Source of the DNA: Nitzschia sp. pyKryTriq1
Taxonomy: Eukaryota; Bacillariophyta; Bacillariophyceae; Bacillariales; Bacillariaceae
NCBI GenBank assembly: GCA_956465555.1
Contig: OY101125.1
Coordinates: forward strand, 126,501 to 190,500
DNA: 64,000 nucleotides
Reading direction: 5' to 3'
The notes under the pieces were generated by a model that was not told where the DNA came from, made no database searches, and saw nothing but the letters and a program-made list of their open reading frames with translations. Made by a program: the position numbers and the translations under genes. Each line of letters starts with the position of its first letter. The stretch's first letter is position 1. Positions 19,433-46,287 of this stretch are shown here, piece by piece.

Positions 19433-20617
19433 CTATTCGACCTCCAAGATTTCTTCTTCGTCGTCGTCATCTTCACGCAAAGTTTCTTCCAGAATCTCCT
19501 CTTCGTCATCGTCTTCCCTCCAAGTCTCTTCGACAATTTCGCATTCAGCATCTTCGTGAATCGTTTCCTCTACTTCTACTTCATCATGCTCCGTTTCGTC
19601 AACAAACTCCTCAAACGATCGTTCGCTCTCCCCCATCAATAGACACGACGCGCCGAGATCCGTCGTCGAATCAACCAGCACGTCTGCATCCAGTACTTGA
19701 CTGTCCTCCGAATTGGGACCTGGTAGAAGTTCACACCCCTGATCATCACTCGATTGTATTCGTACTCGTATCGGCGCCCCTCGGCTCTCGGTCTTCAATA
19801 CCTCGCTCGTCATTCCCCCCTTTCCCCCTTGCGCAGTTTCGCCCCCATGTGAATGCCCGGCAGACCGTCTCTTAAAAAGATTTTCCAATGAGGTCTGCGC
19901 TTCCCCGGATTTAGTTTCCTCTTCTGTGAGATCCTGCTTGACCTCCTTCTTGTAATCGTAGTGCTGCTTCAGATATTTGTACAGTTCAGGTAGCGGTGTG
20001 CGTCTCATCATAGTTTCAGCATTCAAATTCTCCCCCTTGTATACGATTGGAATGAGAGCTCTACAGGCTGCTTCCATATCTTCTGGTTCGGGGTCACGCT
20101 CAAACCAACGTTCGATGACCTGTTCTTCGTACTCATATGCCTCGGAACCATCGTCCTCTGCATCTACTTCTACTCTTACCGAATCTACCACCTGGACTTT
20201 TGGACTGGCGGCAGCAGCGGCCGCGGCAACCGCAGCCTTTCTTTCGCGGAAGAGCTTTTGCATCGAGGAATGGACTGATTCCATGTAATCTTCGTCGTCC
20301 AAGTCTTCGCCTGGGTCTGGGTCTGATGGGTCGGGGGCTGCTTCCACTTCTTGCTCCGAAAACGACCCTGAATTCTCCACTATCTCTTCGTATTCAACGG
20401 CGGTATCGCCAGCAGACGCAGATTCCTCGTGCTGTGCCGGCATCTTTGCCTCCTTCGCAGCCTGCAGTTGGCGCGCCTCTGCCATCAAAGAAGACTTGAT
20501 GGAAGCCAGAAAATCCTCGTCTCCCAACGACTCCTCATCGTCCACAAACTCTTCATCCACGAACTCTTCGTCTTCATAGTATTCTTCGGTCATTGCTTGC
20601 ATCTCTATGCACTGCAT
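19433..20617 (-). CDS. Acidic protein sharing modules with the neighbouring giant protein
   Basis: Single exon, up to 394 residues. ATGs at residues 1, 6 and 9 are possible; the third (MTEEYYEDEEFVDEEFV) aligns best with the start of the giant ([19 protein letters not shown]). Two copies of a motif of form D-E-D-[FY]-[LM]-x-S-[IV]-x-S-S-[LM] occur near residues 34-50 and 110-125. Residues about 168-226 hold one copy of an unassigned module (IERWFERDPEPEDMEAACRA, then LPELYKYLKQHY). The C-terminus is strongly acidic with a repeated EEILE-type ending. There are no membrane segments or signal peptide. It lies 563 bp downstream of the giant gene on the same strand, so tandem duplication and divergence is the simplest origin. 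Function is unknown. Confidence 0.8.
   Translation of the reverse strand: MQCIEMQAMTEEYYEDEEFVDEEFVDDEESLGDEDFLASIKSSLMAEARQLQAAKEAKMPAQHEESASAGDTAVEYEEIVENSGSFSEQEVEAAPDPSDPDPGEDLDDEDYMESVHSSMQKLFRERKAAVAAAAAAASPKVQVVDSVRVEVDAEDDGSEAYEYEEQVIERWFERDPEPEDMEAACRALIPIVYKGENLNAETMMRRTPLPELYKYLKQHYDYKKEVKQDLTEEETKSGEAQTSLENLFKRRSAGHSHGGETAQGGKGGMTSEVLKTESRGAPIRVRIQSSDDQGCELLPGPNSEDSQVLDADVLVDSTTDLGASCLLMGESERSFEEFVDETEHDEVEVEETIHEDAECEIVEETWREDDDEEEILEETLREDDDDEEEILEVE
19940..20116 (-). other. Module A, copy in the small acidic protein
   Basis: This is a 59-residue segment with the pattern [IV]-E-[KR]-W-[ILF]-E-R-[ND], P-E-D, A-C-R-x-L, [YH]-x-[GD]-[ED], [ML]-[LM]-R-R, L-Y-x-Y-L. It matches three copies in the giant protein (33626-33772, 33067-33252, 32515-32700). 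Predicted all-helical from its composition. I cannot name a family for it. Confidence 0.75.
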
Positions 20618-21180: not shown

Positions 21181-24100
21181 TCATGACCCCTTTTCGATTT
21201 CGATCATACGAGCTTCTAGCCCAAACGCGACCAATTCATCCAATTTGCTCTGAACTCGTCTACTTTGGGGGTCCCCAGAGAGACGGACTACGTCTGCCCA
21301 GTGACGACGTAGATTTGAGAGCTTCGGTAGCTCATCTGACCCTCGGATCGAAGACAGGAATCTACCGATATCTGCTTCCGTTGGACCATCCATTGAAATA
21401 AACGCCAATCCAAGTAGTGAAACTTTCAAAACGCCATCCTCAGACACGTCCTTCATCTGATCAGCCAGTGGTGAGCTACTCGTAGTTTCGCGCCTAGAAA
21501 GGACAAACGAAGGTCGAGTGTCGTCCGTCGAATTACGTCGGAACCAGTCCCTTCCAACAACAAAACTATGCATATCGGCCAGCGGTAATGCTTTAGCCTG
21601 CTCTGCTTCTTCGTCATCTTCGTACTGCTGGGCGACTGATAACAACGATTTGCATACGGTCTCGAGCTTTTTCTCATACCGACGTATGAAACCTGAAAGC
21701 CTGTCAGCCTCACGCACCATCTGCGGCACAAGGGCCGATTTTGCGATATTGCTGATTGGTTCTGCAGTACGAATACTTTTAATATCCGAGGTGCTGGTTT
21801 GGAGTGCTTCTGGTTGGGGCTCTTCTTGTGGTTGTACCGGTACACTTTCGGTATAGCCCTTCAGCTCCAGCACCTTCCTTGTGTCCGCCGCAAGTTCTGC
21901 TTCCGTTGCGAGCCTCACTTCCCTGGCACGCGCGCTCTTTTCCGAAAGACGCTGAGCTTCCGCCAATCGCTCCGATCGCTTTGCGTCTACCCCTTGTGCT
22001 TCCCTCGACGACGGCAAAATATTTGTTCGGCCAGCATTTCTTGTTGCTAGCGCCCGAGCCCGGGCCTCAGCAGCTTTCCGTCGCTTTTCCTCGAGTGTTG
22101 ACGGTGTGATGCTGCTGGCATTCGATCTCTTTTCGTTTTCTTTCCAAAACTCAAGTTTATTTCCAGTTTCCGCTTTTTTACCCGGCGAATCGGCTGCCTT
22201 GGCCCAGGCACGAGCTCGGACAGATCCCATCGGCTCGTTTGCATCGCTAACCCCCACGTTGTCCGCACGTGTCTGATCGGGATCTTTATCACTGCTTGGG
22301 CCAACCTCGGTCGATGAAGATTCGATCTTGGCTCTAGCTTGAAGTGCCTTCTGTCTTCTTTCAGCAATGAGTCGCCGTTTTTCTGCGAGACCGTTTCCGG
22401 TGCTACTAGTAGTTCCAGACTCTTGTGCGGGTCTTGTCTGCTGGCCTAATTTTTCCGCCACTAGACGCTTCCCATTCTTTCTCCACCATTCAAGTCGAGC
22501 ACTGGCGTTGACTTCTTCGCCGTCTTCTGCTTGAGTCTCGACAGCTGCATGATCAAGAGCTTTTGCCCACTCTGCTGCTCTGTCTGTCCCCGTGATAGAT
22601 GTACTTTTCTGAGCAACGTGAAGCGAAGCGATTGACTTCTGGACGAGCCCGCTTTGAGGACTTGGATTAGGAGGGATCTGCGCCTCTCTGGGTGACTCGG
22701 GTTGAACACTACTGGCATCTCTTGTCTGCGACGCTGGAATGTCATCGGCACCACTGTCCTCGACGGGCGCCGCCGATGAACCAGGAGTCGTCACTAATTG
22801 TTTCGACGTATCAGCTGGACAAGGTTCTGATTTATCTGTTGACTGATCCAGAACTGGGTCTTCTTGTGGACGGATGCTTGCCTTTTCATCAGACGGGGCA
22901 GAAGCTTGCTTAAGCGCCTCCAGGAGCCCTCCTTGCTCGTTGGCTGCTTCAAGAACAGAAAAATTGCCAAAAAATGTGGTTTCGTTTTCTTCCTTGACGA
23001 AAAATTGTGGGTACATTCCGCGCACTCCGCTCTGTCCAAACAACTTGTTGCGCAATTCTTTCTTCTCTGGATCTGAGCCGTCAATGATTTCCGGATCGAT
23101 CCCCAGTGCACGGAGAATCACCAAGGATCTCTCTTGTTCTACCTCTTGAGCACGCGTAGTTGGAGTTCCCGATAAAAGTACCAACACCCAGAGACGACTG
23201 CTACTCGGTGGCGGTGGACCAGGAACTGCAGCTCTACTTGATAGCTCTCCATTGCCCTCGTTGTTTCCACCACTGTCAATCGGGACGCGCGTCTCCTCTG
23301 TAAATCCGTTCAAGGAGGGGTGCGATTCAGAAAAGCTATGATGGAATGAACTTGCACTCGATTCCAGAAAAAGCTGCGCTTCCTTCAACAGGCGCCCTCC
23401 AAGCCCACCCCCTTGCCTTTGCTTTCTTTTCGGACTAATCCCGGACTTCGAGAGAGAGCTCAAAGTGGTATCGCCCACTTCGCCCTTTCCCAATTCAAAA
23501 GATTCAAACGCAAGACTTTCTTCCGCATTTTCTGTGGAAATAGGTAATTCTTTGTTAGCTGGAAGATTCTCCTTCGCGGGGATCGGAAACATTTGGTCTA
23601 TCTTTCCTCCCCGAGCAGCTTCTGCTCGATTCAAATCTTTGTCAGCCTCCAATTTCTCCCCCAGTCCAGCCGTTTGTCCCTCTTCGAACGACATTTTTCC
23701 CTCGCCCAGACAATCTTGTACGCCCGTAGGTTGTACTCCGTCGTTTTCGTCAAACAGTGTTTCTTCCTCGGTTTGAAGGCGAGACGCTTCCACTCCTTCG
23801 ATAGACCGTGCTGCATCTTCGGCTCTAAGACGAGCGTCTTCTTCTTCAGCCAACCGAGCTTCTTCCTCGGTTTTATGTCGAACCACTTCTTCTTCTGCCA
23901 GCCGTGCATCTTCCTGGGCTGTTAGTCGTTCTGCATCGTCAGCTGCAAGACGAGCATCTTCCTCGGTTTGCATTCGAGCTACTACATCTTCTTCTTCTGC
24001 CAGCCGTGCATCTTCCTCGGCTTGCATTCGAGCCGCTTCTTCTTCTGCCAGCAGTGCAATTGTTTCGGCTTTCAGTCGAGCGTCTTCTTCTTCAGTCAAT

Positions 24101-27100
24101 CGTGCATCTTCCTCTGCTTTCAGTCGTTCCGCTTCCTCTTCAGCTGCGAGCCGTGCATCTTCCTCGGCTTTCAGTCGTTCCGCATCTTCTTCTGCCAGCC
24201 GTGCAATTGTTTCGGCTTTCAGTCGAGCGTCTTCTTCTTCAGTCAATCGTGCATCTTCCTCTGCTTTCAGTCGTTCCGCTTCGTCTTCAGCTGCGAGCCG
24301 TGCATCTTCCTCGGCTTTCAGTCGTTCCGGATCTTCTTCTGCCAGCCGTGCAATTGTTTCGGCTTTCAGTCGAGCGTCTTCTTCTTCAGTCAATCGTGCA
24401 TCTTCCTCTGCTTTCAGTCGTTCCGCTTCGTCTTCAGCTGCGAGCCGTGCATCTTCCTCGGCTTTCAGTCGTTCCGCTTCTTCTTCTGCCAGCCGTGCAA
24501 TTGTTTCGGCTTTCAGTCGTTCCGCTTCCTCTTCCGCAAGCCGTGCATCTTCCTCGGCTTGCAGGCGCGCCGCTTCTTCCTCTTCTGCCAGCCGTGCATC
24601 TTCCTCGGCTTTCAGTCGTTCCGCTTCTTCTTCTGCCAGTCGTGCATCTTCCTCAGCTTGCATACGAGCCGCTTCTTCTACTGCGAGCCGTGCAATTGTT
24701 TCGGCTTTCAGTCGAGCGTCTTCTTCTTCAGCCAATCGTGCATCTTCCTCGGCTTTCAGTCGTTCCGCTTCCTCTTCAGCCAATCGTGCATCTTCCTCGG
24801 CTTTCAGTCGTTCCGCTTCTTCTTCTATAAGCCGTGCATGTTCCTCGGCTTTCAGTCGTTCCACTTCATCTTCAAGTGTGAGCCGTGCCTCCTCCTCGGC
24901 TTTCAGTCGTTCCGCTTCCTCTTCCGCAAGCCGTGCATCTTTCTCGGCTTGCAGGCGCGCCGCTTCTTCCTCTTCTGCCAGCCGTGCATCTTCCTCGGCT
25001 TTCAGTCGTTCCGCTTCCTCTTCTGCCAGTCGTGCATCTTCCTCAGCTTGCATACGAGCCGCTTCTTCTACTGCGAGCCGTGCAATTGTTTCGGCTTTCA
25101 GTCGAGCGTCTTCTTCTTCAGCCAATCGTGCATCTTCCTCGGCTTTCAGTCGTTCCGCTTCATCTTCAGCTGCGAGCCGTGCATCTTCCTCGGCTTTCAG
25201 TCGTTCCGCTTCCTTTACTGCCAGTCGTGCATCTTCCTCAGCTTGCATACGAGCCGCTTCTTCTACTGCGTGCCGTGCAATTGTTTCGGCTTTCAGTCGA
25301 GCGTCTTCTTCTTCAGCCAATCGTGCATCTTCCTCGGCTTTCAGTCGTTCCGCTTCCTCTTCAGCCAATCGTGCATCTTCCTCGGCTTTCAGTCGTTCCG
25401 CTTCTTCTTCTATAAGCCGTGCATCTTCCTCGGCTTTCAGTCGTTCTGCTTCATCTTCAGCTGTGAGCCGTGCCTCCTCGGCTTTCAGTCGTTCCGCTTC
25501 CTCTTCCGCAAGCCGTGCATCTTCCTCGGCTTGCAGGCGCGCCGCTTCTTCCTCTTCTGCCAGCCGTGCATCTTCCTCGGCTTTCAGTCGTTCCGCTTCC
25601 TCTTCTGCCAGTCGTGCATCTTCCTCAGCTTGCATACGAGCCGCTTCTTCTACTGCGAGCCGTGCAATTGTTTCGGCTTTCAGTCGAGCGTCTTCTTCTT
25701 CAGCCAATCGTGCATCTTCCTCGGCTTTCAGTCGTTCCGCTTCATCTTCAGCTGCGAGCCGTGCATCTTCCTCGGCTTTCAGTCGTTCCGCTTCTTCTTC
25801 CGCAAGCCGTGCATCTTCCTCGGCTTTCAGTCGTTCTGCTTCATCTTCAGCTGTGAGCCGTGCCTCCTCGGCTTTCAGTCGTTCCGCTTCCTCTTCCGCA
25901 AGCCGTGCATCTTCCTCGGCTTGCAGGCGCGCCGCTTCTTCCTCTTCTGCCAGCCGTGCATCTTCCTCGGCTTTCAGTCGAGCGTCTTCTTCTTCAGTCA
26001 ATCGTGCATCTTCCTCTGCTTTCAGTCGTTCCGCTTCGTCTTCAGCTGCGAGCCGTGCATCTTCCTCGGCTTTCAGTCGTTCCGCTTCTTCTTCTGCCAG
26101 CCGTGCAATTGTTTCGGCTTTCAGTCGTTCCGCTTCCTCTTCCGCAAGCCGTGCATCTTCCTCGGCTTGCAGGCGCGCCGCTTCTTCCTCTTCTGCCAGC
26201 CGTGCATCTTCCTCGGCTTTCAGTCGTTCCGCTTCTTCTTCTGCCAGTCGTGCATCTTCCTCAGCTTGCATACGAGCCGCTTCTTCTACTGCGAGCCGTG
26301 CAATTGTTTCGGCTTTCAGTCGAGCGTCTTCTTCTTCAGCCAATCGTGCATCTTCCTCGGCTTTCAGTCGTTCCGCTTCCTCTTCAGCCAATCGTGCATC
26401 TTCCTCGGCTTTCAGTCGTTCCGCTTCTTCTTCTATAAGCCGTGCATGTTCCTCGGCTTTCAGTCGTTCCACTTCATCTTCAAGTGTGAGCCGTGCCTCC
26501 TCCTCGGCTTTCAGTCGTTCCGCTTCCTCTTCCGCAAGCCGTGCATCTTTCTCGGCTTGAAGGCGCGCCGCTTCTTCCTCTTCTGCCAGCCGTGCATCTT
26601 CCTCGGCTTTCAGTCGTTCCGCTTCCTCTTCTGCCAGTCGTGCATCTTCCTCAGCTTGCATACGAGCCGCTTCTTCTACTGCGAGCCGTGCAATTGTTTC
26701 GGCTTTCAGTCGAGCGTCTTCTTCTTCAGCCAATCGTGCATCTTCCTCGGCTTTCAGTCGTTCCGCTTCATCTTCAGCTGCGAGCCGTGCATCTTCCTCG
26801 GCTTTCAGTCGTTCCGCTTCCTTTACTGCCAGTCGTGCATCTTCCTCAGCTTGCATACGAGCCGCTTCTTCTACTGCGTGCCGTGCAATTGTTTCGGCTT
26901 TCAGTCGAGCGTCTTCTTCTTCAGCCAATCGTGCATCTTCCTCGGCTTTCAGTCGTTCCGCTTCCTCTTCAGCCAATCGTGCATCTTCCTCGGCTTTCAG
27001 TCGTTCCGCTTCTTCTTCTATAAGCCGTGCATCTTCCTCGGCTTTCAGTCGTTCTGCTTCATCTTCAGCTGTGAGCCGTGCCTCCTCGGCTTTCAGTCGT

Positions 27101-30100
27101 TCCGCTTCCTCTTCCGCAAGCCGTGCATCTTCCTCGGCTTGCAGGCGCGCCGCTTCTTCCTCTTCTGCCAGCCGTGCATCTTCCTCGGCTTTCAGTCGTT
27201 CCGCTTCCTCTTCTGCCAGTCGTGCATCTTCCTCAGCTTGCATACGAGCCGCTTCTTCTACTGCGAGCCGTGCAATTGTTTCGGCTTTCAGTCGAGCGTC
27301 TTCTTCTTCAGCCAATCGTGCATCTTCCTCGGCTTTCAGTCGTTCCGCTTCATCTTCAGCTGCGAGCCGTGCATCTTCCTCGGCTTTCAGTCGTTCCGCT
27401 TCTTCTTCCGCAAGCCGTGCATCTTCCTCGGCTTTCAGTCGTTCTGCTTCATCTTCAGCTGTGAGCCGTGCCTCCTCGGCTTTCAGTCGTTCCGCTTCCT
27501 CTTCCGCAAGCCGTGCATCTTCCTCGGCTTGCAGGCGCGCCGCTTCTTCCTCTTCTGCCAGCCGTGCATCTTCCTCGGCTTTCAGTCGTTCCGCTTCCTC
27601 TTCTGCCAGTCGTGCATCTTCCTCAGCTTGCATACGAGCCGCTTCTTCTACTGCGAGCCGTGCAATTGTTTCGGCTTTCAGTCGAGCGTCTTCTTCTTCA
27701 GCCAATCGTGCATCTTCCTCGGCTTTCAGTCGTTCCGCTTCATCTTCAGCTGCGAGCCGTGCATCTTCCTCGGCTTTCAGTCGTTCCGCTTCTTCTTCCG
27801 CAAGCCGTGCATCTTCCTCGGCTTGCATTCGAGCCGCTTCTTCGTCTGCTTCCATGGCCAACCTGGTTTCTTTGGAACTAGATACGTCCACATCCCTAGT
27901 AGACTTGATAGTTCGGCTTTGGTTGACGGCTTGGTCTGCGTCATCCCGTTCTTTGTTGGACTTTTCCATTGCCTCTGCTTCTTGAGCCAAAATTGCCTCC
28001 TCCTTTAGCCATTTCTCTTTAAGAGCGAGCGCGTTCACTTTGATTTTTTCTTCTGCCTCAATTATAATTTGCCTCTGTCGATTCGCCTCGCTTGCCAATT
28101 TGTGTATGCCATCATTGTAATCCTTTTCAACGTTATTTTTCTCTTCTGATGTCCAGGCTATGTCTTGCGTGTACATCATACCGAGATCCTTCACGAGATT
28201 ATTCAGCGTTTCTTCCTCTTCACGGTATTTTGCTTCCAATGCTTTGGAGTCCTGCTCGAGGTTGCCTTCTTCTTGGAAGATTTCTTTTTCGAGAGAGCGG
28301 GCCTTTTCACCTAGTAGCGCCTCTAACTCCTGCCTTGCTATTTCAACAATTCGAAGTTCGTCTTTGACGGCCTCTTGTTCGTCTTCGGTGGCCTTGATTT
28401 CTTGTTCTAGTTCCATTTCCCTCAATTTCCATTGCATAAATTTAGCTTGCTTCTCCTTCTCCTTTTCCAAATCCATGCTTTTTCTCCTGGCACCAAATAC
28501 ACCAAAAATACCCCCTCCTTTCTCTTGTCCATCTGCTGGGGTGTCTTGCAACGACTCTTCCGCCGTTTCCCGCTCTTTGTCGAACTCTATTCTTGCAGAT
28601 TGGAGCCTTCCACGCAAAACCTGCAATTTCTGCGAGAAAAGTGCCTCGTCGGAGAGCCGCTTCTCTTCAAGCGCGCTGCTTTCCTTCTCCAATCCTTCTT
28701 CGGCAATTTGTCGCTTCTGCTCAAGAGCGTGTACTTTGATTGCAACCTGCTTCTCCTCAGCCTGGCGAGCGGACGCTAGTATCTTAAGCTTTTGTTCCAC
28801 TTCCTTCAAATCCGAGTTGTGCTTTTCCCCAAGCAGCCTAGCAGATTCCTCAATTTCTCGAAGTGCCAACTTTCTTTTCTCCTCTAGCTGCTTCTTTTCG
28901 TCAGATATCTTGGCCTCAAACTTTATTCTCATCTCATGGAGAGCATTAGCTTCTTCAGAGAGTTTGGCCTTGTCCACCCGCCGCCTGAATTCTAGTATCT
29001 GCGTCATTTCCTCGAACTGACTTACTTTTTCTTCCATGGATGATACATCGGTGTGAGCTGAGAGCACAGCAGAATTCTCGTTTTGCCCCGACTTGAGCTG
29101 GTCCACTTGGTTCTCTGAGTTATCAATAGTTACACTATCCAACGTCGTCGAGGCAGGCTCATCAAACGATGGTATTTCTTTTTCAAATAGCTCTTCATCA
29201 GCCAACCAAGCATCTCCGGATTCTTCTATCTCTGCCTTCAAGACTGGTTTTTCCTCGCTATGCGATTGGGCTTCTTCTTCTTCCTCCTCCTCAAGTCGTA
29301 CTTCTTCTTCTTCTACTTCTTCAGCCAACCGAGCTTCTTCTTGTTGAACTTCTGCTTCGGCCAACCGTGCATGGTACTCGGCTTTGAGTTGCGCCTCTTC
29401 GCATTCTGCAGCGAACCGAGCTTCTTCTTGTTGCTCTTCTGCTTCGGCCACCAGTGCATCGTCCTCGGCTTGAAGTTGCGCCTCTTCTTCTTCTTCGTCT
29501 TCAGCCAACCGATCTTCCACTTCTTGGTTTTCTGCTTTGAGCAACCGTGCATCTACCTCGGCTTGAATTCGAGCCCGTTCTTCCTCTTCAGTCAACCGAT
29601 CTTGCTCTTCTTGGAATTCTGCGTCAGCCACCAGTTCATCGTCGTTGGCTTTGGGTTGCGCCTCTTCTTCTTCTTCAGCGAACCGATCTTCCTCTTCTTG
29701 GTTTTCTGCTTTCAGCAACCGTACATCTTCCTCGGCTCCAAGTTGCGCATCTTCTTCTCCTTCAGCCAACCGATCTTCCTCTTCTTGGTTTTCTGCTTCG
29801 GCCACCAGTGCATCGTCCTCGGCTTGAAGTTGCGCCTCTTCTTCTCCTTCGTCTTCAGCCAACCGATCTTCCACTTCTTGGTTTTCTGCTTTGAGCAACC
29901 GTGCATCTACCTCGGCTTGAGTTCGAGCCCCTTCTTCCTCTTCAGCCAACCGATCTTGCTCTTCTTGGAATTCTGCGTCAGCCACCAGTTCATCGTCGTT
30001 GGCTTTGGGTTGCGCCTCTTCTTCTTCTTCAGCGAACCGATCTTCCTCTTCTTGGTTTTCTGCTTTCAGCAACCGTACATCTTCCTCGGCTTCAAGTTGC

Positions 30101-33100
30101 GCATCTTCTTCTCCTTCAGCCAACCGATCTTCCTCTTCTTGGTTTTCTGCTTCAGCCACCAGTGCATCGTCCTCGGCTTGAAGTTGCGCCTCTTCTTCTT
30201 CTTCGTCTTCAGCCAACCGATCTTCCACTTCTTGGTTTTCTGCTTTGAGCAACCGTGCATCTACCTCGGCTTGAATTCGAGCCCGTTCTTCCTCTTCAGT
30301 CAACCGATCTTGCTCTTCTTGGAATTCTGCGTCAGCCACCAGTTCATCGTCGTTGGCTTTGGGTTGCGCCTCTTCTTCTTCTTCAGCGAACCGATCTTCC
30401 TCTTCTTGGTTTTCTGCTTTCAGCAACCGTACATCTTCCTCGGCTCCAAGTTGCGCATCTTCTTCTCCTTCAGCCAACCGATCTTCCTCTTCTTGGTTTT
30501 CTGCTTCGGCCACCAGTGCATCGTCCTCGGCTTGAAGTTGCGCCTCTTCTTCTCCTTCTTCAGCCAACCGATCTTCCACTTCTTGGTTTTCTGCTTTGAG
30601 CAACCGTGCATCTACCTCGGCTTGAGTTCGAGCCCCTTCTTCCTCTTCAGCCAACCGATCTTGCTCTTCTTGGAATTCTGCGTCAGCCACCAGTTCATCG
30701 TCGTTGGCTTTGGGTTGCGCCTCTTCTTCTTCTTCTTCTTCAGCGAACCGATCTTCCTCTTCTTGGTTTTCTGCTTTCAGCAACCGTACATCTTCCTCGG
30801 CTTCAAGTTGCGCATCTTCTTCTCCTTCAGCCAACCGATCTTGAGGATTCTCAGATTTTCCCCCAGTGTCCCCGATATTCTTTTCGTCTCCTTCGTAGTC
30901 GAGGGGAATCGCGAGCTTGTCCATGTACTCGTAGTCCAATTCATCATTTTGCACTATATCACCAGCAACAGCTCTCAGAGCAGCTGCATACGCAGGCGGA
31001 AACTCCTCCGAGGTTTCTTTGCCATATTCGTCTCCAGCCGCATCAAGTAGTGAATAGTTCAGTATCGATTGCGCGACGGGGAGTAGATAGATCATTTTGT
31101 CGCAGTGGACATCGTAGTAAGCTTTCAGGTAAGCCACCTTGCTTGCAGCAAGTCTCAGGGCTGAGATGGCTGTTTGCTCAAAGGACTCGTCCATCTCTTC
31201 GGATTCTGTCCGTTCTATTATTGAAGACAGTTCTTGTTCGATTCTTTGCTCCCTCAAGCTGCCGACGTGCAGTTCTTGATCGGATCTTCCTTCCAAATCT
31301 AAATCGGAGTCGTCGTTTGAGTTTTTAGTGGACGGCGAGTCACCTTTCCTTCCTTTTCCAGCATCAGGAGGCTCGTCCCGATTCAATTCAACAGCGAGTC
31401 TATCCATGTACTCCCAATCCAAATCAAGTGGCTCTAGCTGCTGGGTAGCGATCGATTTCAATGCAGCTGAATATTCAACTGGGAAATCATCAGGATCATC
31501 ATAGCCTAATTCAACTGCAGCTAGCTCGATCAAAGAGTAGTCCATTATGGTCCTTGCCACTGGAGGAATGAACACCATCTTGTCCTTAAACACGTCGTAG
31601 TATTTTTTGCGAAAGGCAACTTTCTTCGCCGCCGCAATGAGGCTTTCCACAAAATCTTTTTGAAAAGGCTCTTCGAGCTCCTCATCTTCGGCACTTCTGA
31701 TTATGCGGACGATCTCTGCCTCGACAATTTGATCCAGATTATTGAGGTCGAGGTCGTACAGGGCGGCGACGGGAAAACCATTTGATTTCTCAACCCCATC
31801 CTCATTCATTCTTGAGTTATCGGCACTCCTCAGTGAGGTCCAGGACATGCCCTGCCCAGATTGGTCACCTTCGGAAAAGTCACTCCGCCGCCGTTTGGTT
31901 TGCGAGCCCTCATCATTGTCCCCCTGCCGCTTGGATTTCAATCGGGAAGGCTCTCCGACGCCACCAGCATCCTCGTCGCCAAAGCAATCATTGGATGAAT
32001 TAGGCTCGCCCTCAGAAGATTCATATCGATCGTCTTGCCCGTCACCGTGTTCCGACATTTCTCGAAGCAATGACTTTGTTGAATCTTTCACAGAGTCTGT
32101 CTCGCAGTTCTGCTGGTCGATATTTGACCACGGCTGTGGAACATGATCGCCCGAGTTCACCGAGGAATCGTCCTTGTCTGAGCCACCGTCCAAAGTGTTC
32201 CAGGATGCACTCCCTTGTGATGAATCCCTTGTCGAATCTTTTGAGAGTGTACTTTCTGAGCGATGTGCATCGCCCTCCATTTTTTGAAGATCATGAGGCT
32301 CGCCGTCCAGCTCTTCAGTCCAGGTTTCCTGTATGGCGTACGAATGTGCGCTTTGTGGTGGCAAGTCCTTTTCCGTCTCTTCATCGGCGACACTTTTGCT
32401 TTGTTGCCTAGATGACAGCTGTTTTTCTAGATCTTCAAACGCGTTAGTATGACTGTTCGTTTGTGGTGGACTATCATCGAGATGTACCAAGTGGATATCC
32501 TTCTCGTTGAGTTTGCCCTGGCGCACGTGATACGAGTACTCATTGGCCAAGTAGCGATAGAGATCTTTGGGGTCTGCTCTTCGGAGCATAACATCAACAT
32601 CATGATCTTCATCATCCTTATACAAAAGTGTAGCGAGCTTACGGCAGGCAAGATCAAAGTCTTCGGGATCGTCGGCATTACGTTCAAGCCATTTTTCAAC
32701 TGCAGGTTCCTGCGCTACAAGGATTTCGTCTTGCACCTCGTGCTCGATTTCCTCCTCTTTTGCATTGGATATTTCATCAGCCTCATCGAGCGTTTCGGCA
32801 ACCATTTCTTCTTCTTTTTCCACAAGAAATTCTGATACCTTCATGGTTTGGTCCTTGACTTTTTGATCACCGGTCGTACCGGCGGTGCTCCATGTCTGTG
32901 TAATGGCCAGTTCCATTTCTTGAGAAGTTTCGGCCTCATGGCTTGACTCTTTCGCAGCGACACTCGTCCTTTTAATATGCTTGATTACTTGCTGGAGGGG
33001 AACCACTTTCTTTTCGGTGGAGATTGTGTCTGTCTCTGCACTCGAACTTAGTTTTTCGTGTATGAGCCCTGTGTGTTCAAGAAACCAGTACTGGTTCTTG

Positions 33101-34227
33101 AGGTACTGATAAAGATCGGCCGGTTCGGATCGACGGAGCATTGTGTCTGCGTCATGGTCTTCGTCGCCATGGTACAAAATAGCGATGAGCTTCCGGCAAG
33201 CATATTCGTAGTCTTCCGGGTCGTCGGCGTTTCTCTCGATCCACTTTTCGATTTGTTGCGAATCGGCCGTTTCGTTTTCCCCACCTCCACTTTCGTCTTC
33301 GTCTTCGTCATCCGAAACATGCGCGGGCAAGCCAGCTTCTGAGTCGGTCGATGCGGAGCGTGGGAGTCGGTTCGCTTCCTCGAACGAAAAGTCATTTTTG
33401 TTTGTGACGGCAGACTCGGTGGGTTGTTCGAAGCCCCAGGGATCTTGTGAACCATCAAATCCCCAGTCTTCGTCGGATTGGTCGGCAGCGGGCGTATTCC
33501 CATCCCTGTGTGAATTTGAAGATGTAAAAGGGGGTGGATCGTCCATGAATTCTTCTGATTCCTGGTCTTCGAAAGATTGCCAAGGAACATCAGTGGACTC
33601 TGCGCTTGTATCCTTCGATTTTTTGAGAAGATGTCTGTGCCGTTGTTTGAGGTTCCTGTACAGGTTTGGAAGATCGCATCGCCTGATAATGTCGTCTGCA
33701 TCGACGTTTTCCCCCTGATGAACGATGTCAATGAGATCCCTACAGGCCCGTTCGTAGTCCTCCGGTTCTTCGTGCGAGGATTCGGACATGCCGTCTTGAT
33801 AGCTACCCAGGTCGAATTCCACGCTTGCGGAGTCGTCTACTGAGAAGGAACCACTTGCAACGCTGGGATTGGTGTCCTTCGAGGCTTGGTCGGGCGCTGA
33901 AAAGCCGCGGTCTTCTTCTTTGATGGAAGCTAGCGAGTTGCTGCGGTGCGCGGCCATTGAGGCGCGGCCGGTGGCGGCGCTCTGGGCCAGTTTCTGGAAG
34001 GAGCTCTGCACTTGATTGAGAAACTGCTCGTCTGAAAGAGCGCCTCCGTCGTCATCCCAGACCTCTTCGATTTCCTCCTCAAAGTCCTCCTCCTCGAACT
34101 CGGCATCGGCCTGGGCATCGTCCGGGGCGGCAGAAGCGCTCTGGGCTTCGTCGACCCATTCTTCCTCTTCAAACTCGGAGTCTTCGACGAACTCTTCTTC
34201 CACAAATTCTTCCTCTTCGTAGTCCAT
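21181..34227 (-). CDS. Giant repeat protein (4,348 residues) with charged-helix arrays and a glutaredoxin-like domain
   Basis: One uninterrupted 13-kb exon. The first ATG is at 34227 ([13 protein letters not shown]); a GTG seven codons upstream is ignored. Approximate residue order: 1-60 acidic; 60-90 the D-E-x-F-L-x-x-V-x-S-S motif; module A copies at about 152-200, 326-387 and 510-571; two module B copies of about 125 residues between about 820 and 1112; array I about 1128-1600; a Lys/Glu coiled-coil stretch about 1720-2080; array II about 2123-3487; an SH3BGR/glutaredoxin-like domain about 3675-3772; a linker with repeated EKRR-x-A-E-x-R elements; and an unassigned C-terminal region about 4165-4348. 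There is no signal peptide or membrane segment. Glu, Ala, Arg, Leu, Asp and Lys dominate, as in trichohyalin-like single-helix proteins. A long structural or linking filament is inferred; no orthologue is recognised. It is divergent from COX19. Confidence 0.85.
22910..23206 (-). other. SH3BGR/glutaredoxin-like domain within the giant protein
   Basis: [20 protein letters not shown] provides the first beta strand and helix. [35 protein letters not shown] and TFFGNF follow, in the order seen in the SH3BGR-like thioredoxin-fold family. That family reads I-D-G-x-D-P or similar after strand 2, then a cis-proline (here YPQFF). There is no Cys at the CxxC position, so redox catalysis is unlikely, as in SH3BGRL proteins. 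The call rests on motif order. Confidence 0.75.
23765..27858 (-). repeat. Array II: about 1,360 residues of 16-residue charged-helix repeats
   Basis: In the giant protein's frame the unit is close to [16 protein letters not shown] (48 nt), itself made of two similar 8-residue halves. Variants read [30 protein letters not shown] and [13 protein letters not shown]. Period-3/4 Leu and i to i+4 Glu-Arg/Lys pairs predict a long single alpha-helix or coiled coil. Copies of the variants recur in the same order, showing block duplications (1,608 bp and 390 bp). The complementary strand is almost free of stops for 4 kb because of codon usage in the repeat. Confidence 0.92.
24359..27588 (-). repeat. 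Near-perfect 1,608-bp tandem duplication inside array II
   Basis: Sequence from 24359 to about 25980 reappears 1,608 bp higher (25967 to about 27588), including order-specific variants such as the CTTTACTGCCAG and CTTCTATAAGCC segments. In the parts I compared the only mismatch noticed is C at 24952 against A at 26560. 1,608 is a multiple of 48 and 3 (536 residues), so the frame is kept. A 390-bp duplication (about 25470/25860, repeated at 27078/27468) is nested within it. The near-identity suggests a very recent event, or an assembly artefact. Confidence 0.85.
29430..30843 (-). repeat. Array I: four 117-118-residue (351-357 bp) repeats
   Basis: In the giant protein's frame, four copies each begin [12 protein letters not shown] and proceed through [40 protein letters not shown] and [20 protein letters not shown]. 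Boundaries are near 30841, 30484, 30130, 29776 and 29430. Copies 1 and 3 share QLEAEED and EEGARTQ, while copies 2 and 4 share QLGAEED and EERARIQ. A two-unit block was therefore duplicated after the first duplication. Small in-frame length changes occur in the Glu runs. A degenerate shorter version continues to about 29262. Confidence 0.9.
30890..31758 (-). other. Module B: two tandem copies in the giant protein
   Basis: Copy 1 (31758 to about 31377) and copy 2 (about 31256 to 30890) align over about 125 residues. Shared signposts are an N-terminal acidic helix ([19 protein letters not shown] against [19 protein letters not shown]), K-V-A-[FY]-x-K-x-Y-Y-D-V, D-K-M-[VI]-[FY]-x-x-P-V-A-x-[TS]-I-[ML]-[DN]-Y-S-L, the E-[ED]-F-P-x-x-Y-x-A-A-L-[KR]-[SA]-[IV]-A segment, and the Y-M-D-[RK]-L-A ending. 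This looks like a folded helical domain. I cannot assign it to a known family. Confidence 0.75.
32515..32700 (-). other. Module A, third copy in the giant protein
   Basis: [20 protein letters not shown] opens the copy, followed by [20 protein letters not shown] and [11 protein letters not shown]. It is closest to copy 2, with the same ERNADDPED core. Copies 2 and 3 are separated by about 120 residues of acidic linker. Confidence 0.75.
33067..33252 (-). other. Module A, second copy in the giant protein
   Basis: [20 protein letters not shown] opens the copy, followed by [20 protein letters not shown] and [18 protein letters not shown]. This is the most complete copy and the best query for a profile search. 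Confidence 0.75.
33626..33772 (-). other. Module A, first (shorter) copy in the giant protein
   Basis: [20 protein letters not shown] opens the copy, followed by [20 protein letters not shown] and LKQRHRHLL. The leading W-x-E-R part of the module is missing, so this copy is truncated at its N-terminal side. G-E-N matches the copy in the small acidic protein. Confidence 0.7.
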
Positions 34228-39931: not shown

Positions 39932-39969
39932 ATGAGCGAAATAGGGGACGGGAAAGACTTCTACGATGA
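39787..39969 (+). other. Upstream ORF overlapping the ATPase start, or an unspliced first exon
   Basis: ATG 39787 opens a 60-codon frame (MPFRLFTIPPAEHSIDAKKG and onward) that ends at a stop 35 bases past the ATPase ATG at 39932, in a different frame. Its composition is protein-like up to about 39905. It could be a uORF that limits translation. Alternatively the real first exon may splice into the ATPase frame; a weak GTAAGG donor lies at 39911. Confidence 0.35.
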
Positions 39970-42900
39970 GGGCTACGAGGACGACGACCGGAGCACCAAC
40001 AACCGCATCACATTTTCTCAAGAGAAGTTCTACGGCCGGCAGGACGAGCTCGTGACTCTGCACGGCGTGTACACACGGCTCTGCAGTCAGCGAAACCTGC
40101 CGACCTCGGAGGAGATGCTTGCGGCGGCAGAGTCGCCCGTGATCGTAATCAGCGGTTATTCGGGAGCTGGAAAATCCTCCCTGGTGGAACGCTTCATCGC
40201 CGAGCTGGACCAGCGAAGACAAGAAGCAACCACAACAGGGACTGGAACGGGAACGGGGACCACCAAGGACTTCTTATTCCTGGCAAGCAAGTTCGAAGAG
40301 CTGCAGACGCCGGATCCCCTCTCTGTCATCGCCCAAGCCTTCCAAGGACTTAGCCAGTCCCTCTTGCAGGAGAGTCGGAAGGCGACCCTGGATCGCCTGC
40401 GAGGGTCTATCGACGCCTCTCTGGGGGCTGAGGCAAACACTCTTGCCTCGATAATACCGGGCTTCAAAGAGGTTCTCGGCAAGACAGAAGTGCCGCCGCT
40501 GACTGCCGCCGCACCGTCTGATGGTAGCTGGAATCGACTCCACTACCTCTTTCAGAAGCTGCTCAAGGCACTTTGTCATGAAGATTGCCCGGTGTTGATG
40601 TTCCTCGACGATCTACAATGGGCGGATTCGGAGTCAATTCGTTTGCTGGGAGCCCTGCTCAATGATTCATCGCTGAAGAACTTTATGTTTATCGGTGCTA
40701 TGAGGGGAGACGAGATAGACAAGGAACACGCGGTCAGCAAGCTCTTGTCCGACGTAGAAAAGGCGACAGGGAAGACTATCGAGAGAATTGAGCTGTTGAA
40801 TTTGTCAATCAGAGATGTCGGATACTTCATTGCAGATACACTCAATCTAGAAGTCGACGAGTGTGAGCCTTTGACGGAGTTTGTCTACGGCAAGACTCGA
40901 GGAAACATTTTCTGGGCAATGCAGCTCTTGGAAGAATTGGAAAGACTCAATTTGCTCTACTATTCCATGATCATTTTCAGATGGGAATGGAATCTCGAAG
41001 GAGTGGAAGTCAATGCTGCTCTCTCGGAAAATTTAGATGACGCCGTGGCTGGAAAGATTCAACACGCTCCAGAAAAGATGCAGAAAGCGCTTATTCTTGC
41101 ATCTTACACCCGATCAGCCTTCCATGTGCAGGCATTGCATGTATTGATGGTGGCAGACGGCTGTGAAGTGAAAAAAGAAGAGCTTGTTCGACTTCTTGAT
41201 ATGGCTGTGCTAGAAGGCTTTCTCCTTAATAACGTGGGCTCGTGGACGTATCGATTTGCTCATGACAGAATTCAGCAAGCTGCTTATTCACTGGTCAAGT
41301 CAGGAAAATCACGAGATGATCTTCGTCGCATGATAGGCACTCAGCTATTCGAGTTGGTCGAAAACGGCGAAGGTGAAGATTGGATGCTCTTTGTGGCCGC
41401 AGACCACCTCAACTCCTGTTCGATCCATGGTGGCTATTCCCTTACCCTTGCGAAATTAAACCTTCTTTGCGGGGAGAAGGCAAACGTGGTAGCGGCCTAT
41501 GTTCCAGCATCGATGTACCTTCAATTGGCTATGAAAAGTCTACGAAAATCGAAAGATCACTGGGAGTCTCAATACGACTTGAGTCTTCGACTTTTCCGAG
41601 CACTCTGTAACGTGGAGCTTTGCCTTGGAAACTTCGTATCTGGAGATCAACTAGCCCGAGAGGTGATCGAGAACGCCAGAAATCTTCAGGATCGATTGCC
41701 AACTTTTTTGTCTCTAGCAATTGCAAAAGGTAGACAAGAGAAGCATGCCGAGGCCTACGAAATATGCCAGAGGGCGCTACTTGATCTGAAAGCCGTCCCA
41801 CAGCACTACCATGCACTTCATGTCCTGAAGGACAAGCACATCATCCAGCGCAAGCTGAAGAAATACTCTGATTATGATATCCTTCTTCTTCCCCAACTAA
41901 AGAATGAAAGGAAGCAAGCTATTGCAAGGTTTCTTGCGGAAGGACAACTTCGTGCATATTATTGTGGTGACATGATGGAATTCATGTTTTGCTGCCTCAA
42001 AAGTATGCGTATCGCGTTCAAGTATGGTATATCGGCAGCAAGCGCGTACGCTTTTGTATCATATGGATTATTTCTCGACAGCGTGTGTGGAGACCACGTG
42101 GGGGCGCTTCGAATGGCTGCACTCGGGAGGCAAATATTGACTAGGGTAGAAGATACTATGTACAGCAAGACACACACGGCACTCACGCTGACAATAATCA
42201 GTTTCTATATTGAGGCATGGAGCTGTCCTCGTGACCAAATTTTGTCCACTGCTCACCTGGCTCACGAGGTACGTTTTTTTCTAAGAAATATGTTTCAGTT
42301 CGAATACGTGCGAATACACACAATCTGACCTCTGTCGATTGCATAAGGCCGGGATGGCAAGTGGAAACGTCGACATCGGTTTCCTCAATTGGATCATTGC
42401 TCATAATTTTGCCTACGCAACTGGCTATCCATTGGATGTTGTCGAGAAAAGTGGCCGCGAGATCTTACAGCAGTTGCAGCTATACAACGCCGAGTCCATC
42501 CTGTCGATGTTCCGTCAAATTCGCCTTCCGGTAAGATATTTACTAGGTCGCGAAAATAACGACATTGACTGGGAGAAGCTTGCGAGCTTCGACACTATCA
42601 GCTTCGACAAAAAATCAGAAACATACCGTTCGAGTTTAGGCTTTCTTGGACGTCTCGAACTGGCGCTATTTTATGGTAGATTGGAGCTGGCCCTGGTATT
42701 TTCAATCAATCTCAGGCCATACACTACCCACGAGGCCAGTTACGTACTCGTCGTGAAGAATTTATTCTACACCGGGTTGGTATATTCTGGACTCGCAAGA
42801 AAAGGCGGCCCGATGGCAGTTCGGTATCGATCAAAGGCATCGGCCCTCTGCAAAGAGATGGAGAAAATCTGCCGCACAAAAGGGCTCAGCCCTCTCCACA

Positions 42901-43484
42901 AAAGTCTTATAATGAAAGCGGACACCCTTGCGTGTCGGTCCAAAGACATGCTCAAAATCGCAGCAGCATACGATGACGGGATCAGTGCCGCTGTCAAAAT
43001 GGGTTTTTTACAGGATGCTGCGCTCGCTTCAGAGATTGCGGGGGAGTTTTTCTTGGCAATGTCTGATCAATTCAAAGCCAGGCAATATATTTGTCAGGCT
43101 TCTGATATCTACAGAGAGGTGAGTCTTCATTTATGTTGTCCGGAGTAAACGCGCAAGAACAGGCGCTTTGCAACGTCATCTAACTGCATCTTTTGTGGTC
43201 AGTGGGGAGCGATGGCGAAGGTGAAAGATCTATCTCACCGTCGGCCATCCTTCTTTGGCGCATCCATCCACGACAAAGCAGCTGCAAGGGACGGCGTTCA
43301 TTCGACGTGGGTATCGGCTGACCTCAGCGAATCCCAGAATGCAATTGATTTGGACTTGCTCTCCGTCCCGATCCCCAGAACTGAACTGCCAGATATGTCA
43401 ATCGCTGCAAGTGGTCGTACTCCAGCACGGGACCGCGATGAGATTTCAATCTTGACCGATCCTTCCTTAGAACGAGGAAGTTAG
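39932..43484 (+). CDS. STAND/AAA-type signalling ATPase with helical-repeat tail
   Basis: Three exons: 39932-42268, 42348-43118 and 43203-43484. Introns have GTACGT and GTGAGT donors, and the product is 1,129 residues. Residues about 33-40 (FYGRQDEL) form the usual entry of Orc1/AAA_16-like ATPases. Walker A is GYSGAGKSS (75-83). Walker B is VLMFLDDLQWAD near residue 220, with the sensor-like FMFIGAMRGDE after it. FAHDRIQQAAYSLV near 445 is typical of the predicted-ATPase region found next to kinases and adenylate cyclases. From about 470 to 1,035 the protein is TPR/MalT-like alpha-solenoid. The last 93 residues are polar and probably disordered. The family works as a nucleotide-switched signalling hub. 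No kinase, cyclase or DNA-binding domain is present here, so the output is unknown. Confidence 0.85.
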
Positions 43485-43558: not shown

Positions 43559-45334
43559 TTATTTTACTTTGAACATTCTTTCTTTCTGTGCTTGATCGTG
43601 TGTGATCCAAATTGCAGACATGCCTGATCCAGCGCAGTGCTCCTTGACGCTCGTTTCGACTTTCATCTTGGATAGAGAATCCATGGCGGACGTACTCTCA
43701 TCAAGTAGAATCACCCTTGGATGGAATGACAACGCCAACGCGAGCAGCACCCGTTGACTCTCGCCTCCGCTCAAAGCCTTCCATTCCGACTCAAGAAGTG
43801 CTAGATTCATTCCCCAATCCGAAATAAGTTGAAATGTTTTGGTCTTCAAATCAGTGTACGCAGAAGTTTTTTCATAGTACCGAACTTTGAACGAGGAGAT
43901 TTTCTTCATGAAATCAATAGGAGTGCCTGGAATATCGACCTTAGTTTGAGGAACGTACAAAACTTGCCTCCTCCATGACGACATGTCGTTGAATGTCGAC
44001 ATTCTCTTTCCCAACAGCTCAATGGTACCCTCATCAGACGCTTCGAGTCCGGCCAAGATGCGGAGCAGAGTGCTCTTGCCAACACCTGACGGCCCGTCTA
44101 CAAGCGTCTCGCCACCTGTCTGCACTATTAGAGAAATATTTCGAAAAAGAATACGACGTGTTGGCGTGGTTCCATCTTCTAAACTTTCCTGCTGCTTAGA
44201 CCCGGCTCCGTTTTCGTCTTTTTTCTGAAACGAGTAGCTCAAGCTGGAGACACTAAGGCAAGTCTCGTCTGCATTCGCACCTTCCGCTGATGTTATGATA
44301 CGAATCTCTCCCTGTGGTGCAAGGAATTTCGATTCATCCGTAATGAACAAAGAAGACGAAGACATGCGGTGCGCTTGTCTTCCAGGAACCCGAAAGTAAG
44401 TTACTGCGGCTTCGCATACCTGCCTGATGAGGGCAAGTGCGTTTGGCTTGGTCTCGCGCTTGTGGAGTCTGTCCGTCCTCAAAATCATTCTCGAATCGAA
44501 GCAGATCCTTAACACGAAGAAGATCTGGGTGAATATGGTGCCAAAGGAGCACGCTGCAATCAAGTAAATAATCAGAATTTGATATCGTGCTGCATCTGTG
44601 ACGCTGGAGCCCCCCAAGATTTGTCCAGTCATCATACCCGGAATGGAAATGATACCTACGATTTCGAGATAGTGTGTTAGATGATCTTGGCAAAATATAT
44701 TGCAAGCTAAGCCCGCTGAACTTGACGTACCGATAATGGCCATATTGTTTAGCTGAGGCATGGCACCAATGCGGGCGGCCTCCTTTAGCAATCGAGAACA
44801 TGCCTCGTAGCTGTTTGCCCCAAAACAGAGCAGAAGCTCCACTTCTCGGGACGACTCGACCATTGAAGTTAGCATTGAGTTGATTGACAAAGATATACCA
44901 TTGATGGTATTCCCCAGGAGCATCCCGACTATCGGAATCACATACTGTGGATCCCACAAAGGGCTAGGCTGCAAAATGATGCCGAAGGCGAAGAGGGAAA
45001 CCCAAGTCACGTTCATCAAAATTACGACGAGGACGTACCAAAACATCCCATCGAAGAAGTACTTGGATCTAGACGAGGATTCAAATGTCGCCAATAGTAC
45101 CATGATGAGAATATAGCCGATTACAACCCACCATAAAGTCACTCCCCAGGAGAAAATCGGGTTCAGGATAAAGCTCAATATGGTAAGTTGTATGGACGTT
45201 CTCGCTATGCCGACGAGAATCGGACTCTCTAAGCCCAGCTCCAAATACCAGGAAAACGCAGCGATGACCAGTAACGGCGTCATCGTGAGTGCGATATGCT
45301 CCGGTGAGACCTTAATGAGCGTTTCGGTGGACAT
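43559..45334 (-). CDS. One-chain FetB/FetA-like (ALS3/STAR1-like) ABC transporter
   Basis: Exons 45334-44731 and 44655-43559 give 566 residues from the first ATG; a GTG 15 codons upstream is ignored. Residues 1 to about 275 form a UPF0014/FetB permease with about seven membrane helices, including LLGNTINGISLSINSML and the NNMAIIG/IISIPGMMTGQI stretch typical of the family. Residues about 340-566 form an ABC ATPase with Walker A DGPSGVGKST, signature LSGGESQRVL, Walker B VILLDESTSAMD and switch His in WITHDQAQ. Bacterial FetA/FetB export iron, and plant ALS3/STAR1 act in aluminium tolerance; metal or UDP-sugar substrate here is open. In bacteria and plants the two parts are separate proteins, so this is a fusion. 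The 75-nt intron (donor GTACGT, acceptor TCGTAG) is itself in frame and stop-free. Confidence 0.9.
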   Translation of the reverse strand: MSTETLIKVSPEHIALTMTPLLVIAAFSWYLELGLESPILVGIARTSIQLTILSFILNPIFSWGVTLWWVVIGYILIMVLLATFESSSRSKYFFDGMFWYVLVVILMNVTWVSLFAFGIILQPSPLWDPQYVIPIVGMLLGNTINGISLSINSMLTSMVESSREVELLLCFGANSYEACSRLLKEAARIGAMPQLNNMAIIGTSSSAGLACNIFCQDHLTHYLEIVGIISIPGMMTGQILGGSSVTDAARYQILIIYLIAACSFGTIFTQIFFVLRICFDSRMILRTDRLHKRETKPNALALIRQVCEAAVTYFRVPGRQAHRMSSSSLFITDESKFLAPQGEIRIITSAEGANADETCLSVSSLSYSFQKKDENGAGSKQQESLEDGTTPTRRILFRNISLIVQTGGETLVDGPSGVGKSTLLRILAGLEASDEGTIELLGKRMSTFNDMSSWRRQVLYVPQTKVDIPGTPIDFMKKISSFKVRYYEKTSAYTDLKTKTFQLISDWGMNLALLESEWKALSGGESQRVLLALALSFHPRVILLDESTSAMDSLSKMKVETSVKEHCAGSGMSAIWITHDQAQKERMFKVK

Positions 45335-46287
45335 GCTGGACGTTGGACGTTGGATGTTGGATGTTGGAGCGGTGTCCACTCATTGACGACTGAATCAAAT
45401 CTCTCGACCTGATTTCAGTTGTTTCCAACAAAGGAAGAAGTTGTTTCACGGAAAACGCCGATGTTCAAAGTTCAAAATCAAATAATTATGAATTTCTCGC
45501 TTGTGCCACTGAGAATGCTGGATTGGACGATGGGATATGGGAATGGTGATAAAATTTCAAATGCTGAAAAGGGGGGAACGCGAAGGGAACTGTGACAACA
45601 ACAGCAGGCTGGCTGAATCGATATCAATCGTACGTACTGTACGAAACGTCTCGGGATTTTTTGTGAACATCATCGTGCGTGCGCGGCTGGATCTTCTCAT
45701 CTGGCGGACTGTGTAACTACAGTAGCTGTACCAGTAGATGCCATACATACTGTAAAAAAATGGTACCGGTACCGGTAGTACAGATGCGATGAATAATGAA
45801 TGAATCTTTTCTTGTTAGTGCGAGCGAAGGACTGACGTAAAATTGACTGCTTCGATCGGAATTTCGATTCTGCGGGACCACAAAAAATCGGGACTGACGC
45901 TGGCCGCCGTGCGTGCGTGTAGCAGTGCCTGTGGTACCTGGTACGGGTACCGGTAGATGTACAGTACCTGGTACTGGTACTGGTACCGGTACCGGTATGT
46001 ATGTGCAGACATGCAGACATGCTGCACCGGTGACGTGGTCTGCATCTCCGCTGCCCGCTTTTTGCCGCCAACACGCGCCAGCTCAACCCCCTCTCATTGT
46101 CATCAATGTCGTCAACATCACTGTCGGTATCCATACGACATATCACAGCTACTCGTACGACTGCAGATGGGATTCCACCACATCGACACAATCGACAGAA
46201 CTTTTTCAAGTCATCCTTTGTCGTCTCCATAATAAATAATATCAAGGTGAAACAACAAAGCACCAAGCGACACCAGTCGAAACCACC
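45335..46287. promoter_or_regulatory. Divergent promoter region between the ABC transporter and ABC1K kinase
   Basis: 953 bp. It contains an imperfect heptamer repeat (TGGATGT/TGGACGT, 45337-45368) just upstream of the transporter ATG, a TACCGGTACCGGTA motif at 45761-45780, and the denser tract at 45932-46000. Minus frames of 76 to 189 codons here translate the GTAC tract and are not considered genes. Confidence 0.5.
45932..46000. repeat. GGTACC/TACCGGTA-rich tract upstream of ABC1K
   Basis: GGTACCTGGTACGGGTACCG is followed by GTACAGTACCTGGTACTGGT and ACTGGTACCGGTACCGGTAT. These are the same hexamer words as at 18298-18396 and 18736-18784. The tract ends about 290 bp before the kinase ATG. 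Confidence 0.7.

Follow-up and report, generated by a model that had tools for sequence, protein, structure and literature searches.

What kind of protein does a single open reading frame (ORF) of about 13 kb encode in a diatom, and what could a cell do with it? The frame lies in a 64,000-nucleotide stretch of Nitzschia sp. pyKryTriq1 (assembly GCA_956465555.1, contig OY101125.1, positions 126,501 to 190,500), here called the window, in whose coordinates all positions are given. It reads on the minus strand from an ATG at 34227 to a stop at 21181-21183, and its 4,348 codons specify a protein with a computed mass of 489 kDa and isoelectric point (pI) of 4.3. We consider this giant protein real and unusual. 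As judged from its residue pattern, the second of its two repeat arrays (array II) carries the signature of a single alpha-helix (SAH) and not of a coiled coil. The mechanism that we propose below is plausible, and the function is one that we infer.

21181..34227, minus strand: giant-protein frame, 4,348 residues plus stop (ORF call and translation)

We first asked of the frame itself whether it could be trusted. With a stop density of 0.0356 per triplet on the rest of the minus strand, 4,348 stop-free codons would be met by chance with a probability of about 3e-69, and the single open frame of 13 kb claimed in the preliminary description of this locus is borne out. The array periods found by TRF (21, 30, 48, 87, 180, 195, and 354 bp) and a 1,608-bp block discussed below are all divisible by three. 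Five strong splice-donor hexamers were sought in the frame, and one copy of one was found (GTAAGT, codon 1735). As read from the DNA, the giant gene is one exon. The ordered domains and two repeat arrays noted previously were recovered by TRF and as internal repeats of modules A, B, and C. From the N-terminus, an acidic start is followed by three copies of module A, a nuclear localisation signal (NLS)-like motif, two copies of module B, and array I; after array I come a middle helical region, array II, a glutaredoxin-like piece, two copies of module C, and the C-terminal region. An artefact, in which at least two genes are read through as one frame or the duplication was made by assembly, is highly improbable. 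The gene is read from DNA, and near-identical 1,608-bp copies are difficult to assemble, but the stop-free length and the repeat periods in multiples of three speak against this explanation, and an assembly error could alter the copy number while leaving the main picture untouched.

The evidence for an unusual protein comes chiefly from array II, which TRF places in the DNA at 23838-27849 with units of 48 bp and 195 bp.

23788..27741, minus strand: array II, octad, single-alpha-helix-like, residues 2163-3480 (1,318 residues; repeat spacing, charge, and heptad analysis)
24335..27603, minus strand: 1,608-bp block present twice, head to tail, within array II, 24335-25995 and 25943-27603 (self-comparison)

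The array repeats an octad with the consensus R-L-[K/A]-[A/E]-E-E-[D/A]-[A/E]. Between residues 2160 and 3480 there are 160 [R/H][L/M/H] dipeptides, whose 159 spacings are of eight residues in 131 cases, nine in 22, seven in four, and 10 and 16 in one each; in all but four of the 131 length-8 units (127), Glu occupies position 5. Charge and hydrophobicity share a period of 8.12 (residues 2171-3440). Opposite charges at i,i+4 occur at 0.127 per residue in one order and 0.150 in the other, where 0.066 is expected for each, and like charges at 0.037 (0.176 expected). Acids flank 150 of the 162 Arg residues at both i-4 and i+4, compared with a mean of 23.6 and a maximum of 39 in 300 shuffles, and all 162 have an acid at one or both of these positions (mean 100.0, maximum 121 in 300 shuffles). 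The longest alternating charge ladder with a step of four runs for 25 residues (300 shuffles: mean 5.6, maximum 10), and the salt-bridge score stands at z = 22.4 relative to 300 shuffles. No heptad excess was detected in array II, where the best heptad occupancy was 0.26 vs 0.30 shuffled, and the leucine/hydrophobic angle is 88.7 degrees per residue, compared with 102.9 for a heptad. Two marks of an SAH, opposite-charge pairs beyond composition and the absence of a heptad hydrophobic seam, are seen here. Because the charge ladder is present and the heptad excess absent, array II fits a charged single alpha-helix (CSAH) and not a coiled coil, and the coiled-coil candidate was rejected on the heptad counts and the 88.7-degree angle.

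The longest stretch of array II without Pro or Gly is 1,259 residues. The array is long, as had been proposed, but measures 1,318 residues where about 1,360 had been claimed. If fully helical at 0.15 nm per residue it would extend 198 nm, close to the 200 nm given earlier, and a rough SAH score backs roughly 1,230 residues of it, more weakly than it does the SAH of human Myo10. A plectin-like pattern, also suggested for this array, did not hold up against the heptad occupancy and the 8.12 period. In a sequence search of the PDB, array II matched HeliScrew4, a helical protein made by design (1.4e-6), and a chain of a Dot/Icm substrate (6.3e-6), matches that we read as a composition effect.

The two copies of the 1,608-bp block are 99.3% identical over 1,661 bp (11 mismatches), which reflects either a recent event, duplication or homogenisation, or an effect of assembly. 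Given this near-identical tandem block, the copy number of array II may vary or be mis-assembled. Differences among the repeats lean toward third codon positions. Single-site codon differences were synonymous in 226 cases and not in 131 at an offset of 16, and in 184 and 123 cases, respectively, at an offset of 65, in a crude comparison made without a tree or substitution model. An ORF of 1,346 residues on the opposite strand (23968-28008, plus strand) faces array II and is open since the repeats hold no stops in that frame. At offset 16, changes at sense positions 1, 2, and 3 number 272, 405, and 603. Because the third codon position of the antisense ORF corresponds to sense position 1, the least changed, this ORF was rejected as a gene and most likely arises as a side effect of the repeats.

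Array I and the region that follows it differ from this picture.

29248..30750, minus strand: array I, residues 1160-1660, a single proline in each 118-residue unit (TRF, proline and charge analysis)
27853..29010, minus strand: middle helical region, residues 1740-2125, coiled coil plausible but weak (heptad occupancy)

TRF delimits array I at 29309-30842, with 4.3 copies of a 354-bp unit and 95% matches. Its prolines, at residues 1171, 1288, 1406, and 1524 (one motif each), are spaced by 117-118 residues and leave proline-free runs of 116, 117, 117, and 135 residues. Because a proline recurs every 117-118 residues, array I is not the single continuous helix of 70-80 nm that had been envisaged, and that candidate was rejected. 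To judge from this spacing, it may instead consist of successive helices, each up to about 117 residues long. With a net charge of -0.33 per residue it is more acidic than array II. Its salt-bridge score is low (0.13, z 4.2), and 16 of its 31 Arg residues have acids on both sides (5.8 shuffled). Heptad occupancy in array I equals that of shuffled sequence (0.31 for both), with no coiled-coil excess. In the middle region, occupancy is weakly in excess (0.48 vs 0.42 shuffled), and this region may dimerise.

On either side of the helical regions lie smaller modules, one of which recurs in a second ORF downstream.

34048..34227, minus strand: very acidic N-terminus, residues 1-60 (by eye; resembles the start of the downstream ORF)
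33583..33786, minus strand: module A copy 1, residues 148-215 (self-comparison)
33043..33270, minus strand: module A copy 2, residues 320-395 (self-comparison, match to downstream ORF)
32503..32730, minus strand: module A copy 3, residues 500-575 (self-comparison, match to downstream ORF)
31885..31932, minus strand: bipartite NLS-like motif KR-x10-KRRR, residues 766-781 (pattern match)
31363..31746, minus strand: module B copy 1, residues 828-955 (41% identity to copy 2)
30883..31275, minus strand: module B copy 2, residues 985-1115 (41% identity to copy 1)
22888..23202, minus strand: glutaredoxin-like (possible thioredoxin-fold) domain without CxxC, residues 3676-3780 (hhalign; no Pfam or NCBIfam match)
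22258..22584, minus strand: module C copy 1, residues 3882-3990 (39% identity to copy 2)
21973..22230, minus strand: module C copy 2, residues 4000-4085 (39% identity to copy 1)
21184..21780, minus strand: C-terminal region, residues 4150-4348, no family (Pfam and NCBIfam searches)
19433..20617, minus strand: downstream ORF, 394 residues, same acidic start, one module A, no array (sequence comparison)

The downstream ORF starts 563 bp past the stop of the giant, and its acidic start carries EEFVDEEFVDDEE (by eye). Module A copy 2 matched it with E=6e-15 in a single comparison, a significant similarity, and the four copies of module A (three in the giant, one downstream) have 15 invariant columns in common. 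The downstream ORF is a paralogue of the N-terminal modules of the giant, one that the preliminary description does not mention. When the ends and middle region of the giant and the downstream ORF were searched against all six frames of the window, these two genes were found and no third.

The glutaredoxin-like identity of residues 3676-3780 is suggestive. Using hhalign with a profile built from two E. coli glutaredoxins, we obtained a collinear match of 67 columns (E 0.011 in one comparison, probability 3.7%) in which PQFF lies under PQIF and GGL under GGL; module B, used as a control, aligned over 16 columns. The score of 19.22 was reached by none of 200 shuffles, yet among 39 real tiles of the giant, where the top score (19.32) overlaps this domain, the next score of 18.06 belongs to a non-overlapping tile. 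The likeness to glutaredoxins consists of the collinear match around PQ[IF]F and GGL. The piece differs from them in that it contains neither CxxC nor CxxS, all 11 Cys of the giant falling outside residues 3676-3780, and in that it has no Pfam or NCBIfam match at E up to 10. The glutaredoxin-like domain of the preliminary description is a candidate and not an established one, and a dithiol redox role is unlikely because CxxC is lacking. SH3BGR-type thioredoxin folds are another candidate comparison for this piece.

Searches for relatives were unproductive. In Pfam, nothing exceeded the curated cut-off for the giant or the downstream ORF (weak matches had E 0.02 to 0.15), and no plakin or lamin-tail domain was found in either end, the best match being Gemini_BL1 under the cut-off (E 0.053). 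None of six pieces of the giant matched NCBIfam. By sequence against the PDB, the two ends of the giant had no match at E up to 1, the middle region and array I had no match, and the weak best matches were at E 1.5 and 1.6 for the glutaredoxin-like piece, 0.77 for module A, and 0.84 for module B. No relatives were found in viral contigs scanned with a few short peptide patterns, in phages searched by tblastn with the C-terminal piece only, or in genome contigs scanned with the glutaredoxin-like piece only, a collection that holds no eukaryote genomes. With so few short patterns and no eukaryote genomes, the contig scans say little about eukaryote relatives, and the absence of a relative outside the window applies to collections without eukaryotes. 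Among the papers listed in literature searches on diatom giant, coiled-coil cell-wall, and nuclear-lamina proteins, on SAHs in diatoms and in trichohyalin, and on SAH giants, none dealt with this protein.

Where in the cell might the protein reside? No signal-peptide-like or transmembrane stretch was found in the giant (best 19-residue hydropathy 1.3; first 80 residues -0.62), and because of this an extracellular or cell-wall location is unlikely. We rejected a cell-wall protein on its start, which bears no likeness to a signal peptide, and the cell-wall-associated filament first proposed is not upheld. The NLS-like pattern KR-x10-KRRR matches once and occurs in 7 of 2000 shuffles of residues 1-1160, a pattern that was picked after sight of the motif.

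We favour, with modest confidence, a giant tether or spacer that is soluble and intracellular and in which array II is a nearly continuous charged single alpha-helix. Array II would form one such helix of about 1,200-1,300 residues, and its R-E-R-E ladders, with nearly every Arg bracketed by acids four positions to either side, would keep the helix straight without a partner strand. This rod would part the N-terminal region (three copies of module A, two of module B, array I, and the middle region) from the region past the rod, with its possible thioredoxin-fold domain, two module C copies, and C-terminal domain. Rod length would change through in-frame exchange or duplication of repeat blocks. 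We infer the monomeric-helix fold of array II, partner binding by the ends, and the function in spacing or as an elastic tether. The earlier reading survives in its giant frame, long array II helix, and probable spacer role, and fails in its array I helix and cell-wall placement.

Several observations weigh against the tether or spacer. Our SAH score, taken in 49-residue windows, uses weights of our own in place of the published matrix and is approximate; by it, array II scores 0.31 overall compared with 0.48 for human Myo10, whose best window reaches 0.57. At a threshold of 0.25, array II consists of nine runs that cover 1,172 of 1,232 residues (2146-3377) with dips of 1-25 residues between them, and residues 3378-3480 score under 0.25. 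At 0.35 no 49-residue window run exists in array II. The array has a net charge of -0.21 per residue with more Arg (12.3%) than Lys (4.8%), and according to passages in PMC5812594, certain designed repeats with a high content of Arg or Ala aggregated. Ala makes up 25.4% of array II, about 1.8 per heptad, under the three per heptad cited in the same passages. Structure prediction for the modules, which the preliminary description had called for, gave AlphaFold models of low confidence (mean pLDDT 52.1 for module B and 46.0 for residues 3640-4348). A synonymous-codon score did not tell the real and shifted frames apart. No purifying signal was found in array I (10 synonymous and 33 non-synonymous single-site changes at an offset of 118).

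The same sequence features may be read in other ways. The arrays could dimerise side by side and polymerise into a filament or lamina-like mesh, as a coiled-coil filament of the plectin, intermediate-filament, or NUP-1 type. The weak heptad excess over residues 1740-2160 and the NLS-like motif are consistent with this, as are the precedent of NUP-1, which is likewise giant, acidic, and made of helical repeats and which acts in the nucleus (portions of PMC3313915), and the expectation, voiced in part of PMC5630835, of new lamina types in lineages without lamins. Array II, with its lack of heptad excess and its 88.7-degree angle, and the failure to match a lamin tail or plakin in Pfam point the other way, and we consider such a filament unlikely. 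We are slightly more doubtful of a lineage-specific intracellular, perhaps nuclear, ruler in which a helix of about 200 nm and about 160 octads, bearing a nearly uninterrupted Arg-Glu ladder, sets the distance between two anchoring ends, its length tuned by in-frame block duplication. Equally doubtful is an acidic polyelectrolyte brush, disordered for the most part, to which cations or basic proteins bind, with the helix pattern incidental. The overall pI, the negative net charge of both arrays, and the prolines and low salt-bridge score of array I would suit a brush, but a brush needs neither an R-E ladder far above composition nor the preference for synonymous change in array II codons.

It is less probable still that the repeats expanded without a selected length, the ends being ordinary scaffold domains between which array II lengthened through unequal exchange, to little effect. 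The duplicated 1,608-bp block, the downstream paralogue with module A and no array, and the excess of non-synonymous changes in array I agree with such growth. The octad and ladder are nonetheless kept along array II, as the 150 of 162 doubly flanked Arg residues attest, and 226 of the 357 single-site codon differences in array II are synonymous.

Trichohyalin and plectin have charged helical repeats, to which the arrays of the giant bear a likeness. The rods of plectin are heptad coiled coils, and array II shows no heptad pattern through its length. SAH/CSAH domains such as that of myosin 10 (passages in PMC5812594) are closer: richness in E, R, and K, opposite-charge pairs at i,i+3 and i,i+4 beyond composition, lack of heptad excess, and a position between other domains are shared features. 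Array II differs from them in its length of about 1,318 residues, its Ala richness, its net acidity, and a score under that of Myo10. SAH domains average about 75 residues, with about 200 for the longest in myosins, in the part of PMC5378345 that treats their length. For Giant5, a giant surface protein of Apilactobacillus kunkeei, a single alpha-helix some 2,000 residues long is predicted, and coiled-coil models of it had no consistent support (sections of PMC12863079); extreme helix length alone is therefore not new. Giant5 is bacterial and extracellular with beta-sheet domains, whereas the diatom giant has no signal-peptide-like start. NUP-1, the trypanosome nucleoskeleton protein, resembles the giant in its size (>400 kDa), acidic pI (5.07), and long helical repeats, nearly identical to one another, that lie between two end regions, but is described as a coiled coil whose 144-residue repeat occurs 17 times (portions of PMC3313915), where array II is an octad without heptad excess. 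By heptad occupancy, a coiled-coil repeat region like that of NUP-1 was found in neither array II nor array I. On sequence grounds, we class array II as SAH-like and regard the protein overall as a giant whose ends are family-less and whose rod is a long SAH.

Neighbouring ORFs in the window match the inositol 5/6-kinase, ankyrin, M16 peptidase, alpha-L-fucosidase, ABC1 kinase, GH3, and SelO families, a set that fits a eukaryote. In one ORF (43559-45379, minus strand), a UPF0014 membrane domain (PF03649, E 1.5e-59) and an ABC ATPase (PF00005, E 9e-23) are fused. Another (39932-42328, plus strand) encodes a large AAA_16 ATPase (E 1.8e-24) that appears STAND-like from weaker matches, and adjoins an ORF without a Pfam match (42339-43148, plus strand). 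A Cys-rich ORF of 473 residues (52752-54173, plus strand) has repeated CxxxCxxxxCC-like blocks (by eye) and no Pfam match at E up to 0.001. A DEAD-box helicase domain (57169-58791, plus strand; E 3.1e-26) is carried on in the ORF at 58792-59373, and the break between the two is probably an intron or a frame break.

Should array II prove to be a single monomeric helix, its length would be several times that of the longest myosin SAH (about 200 residues, from the part of PMC5378345 cited above) and would match the scale of the bacterial prediction of about 2,000 residues (sections of PMC12863079). Its simple octad offers a natural way to learn to what extent an Arg-Glu ladder by itself keeps a helix straight, and a single chain with a rod of about 200 nm and tags at its ends would allow the use of such helices by cells as rulers to be tested.

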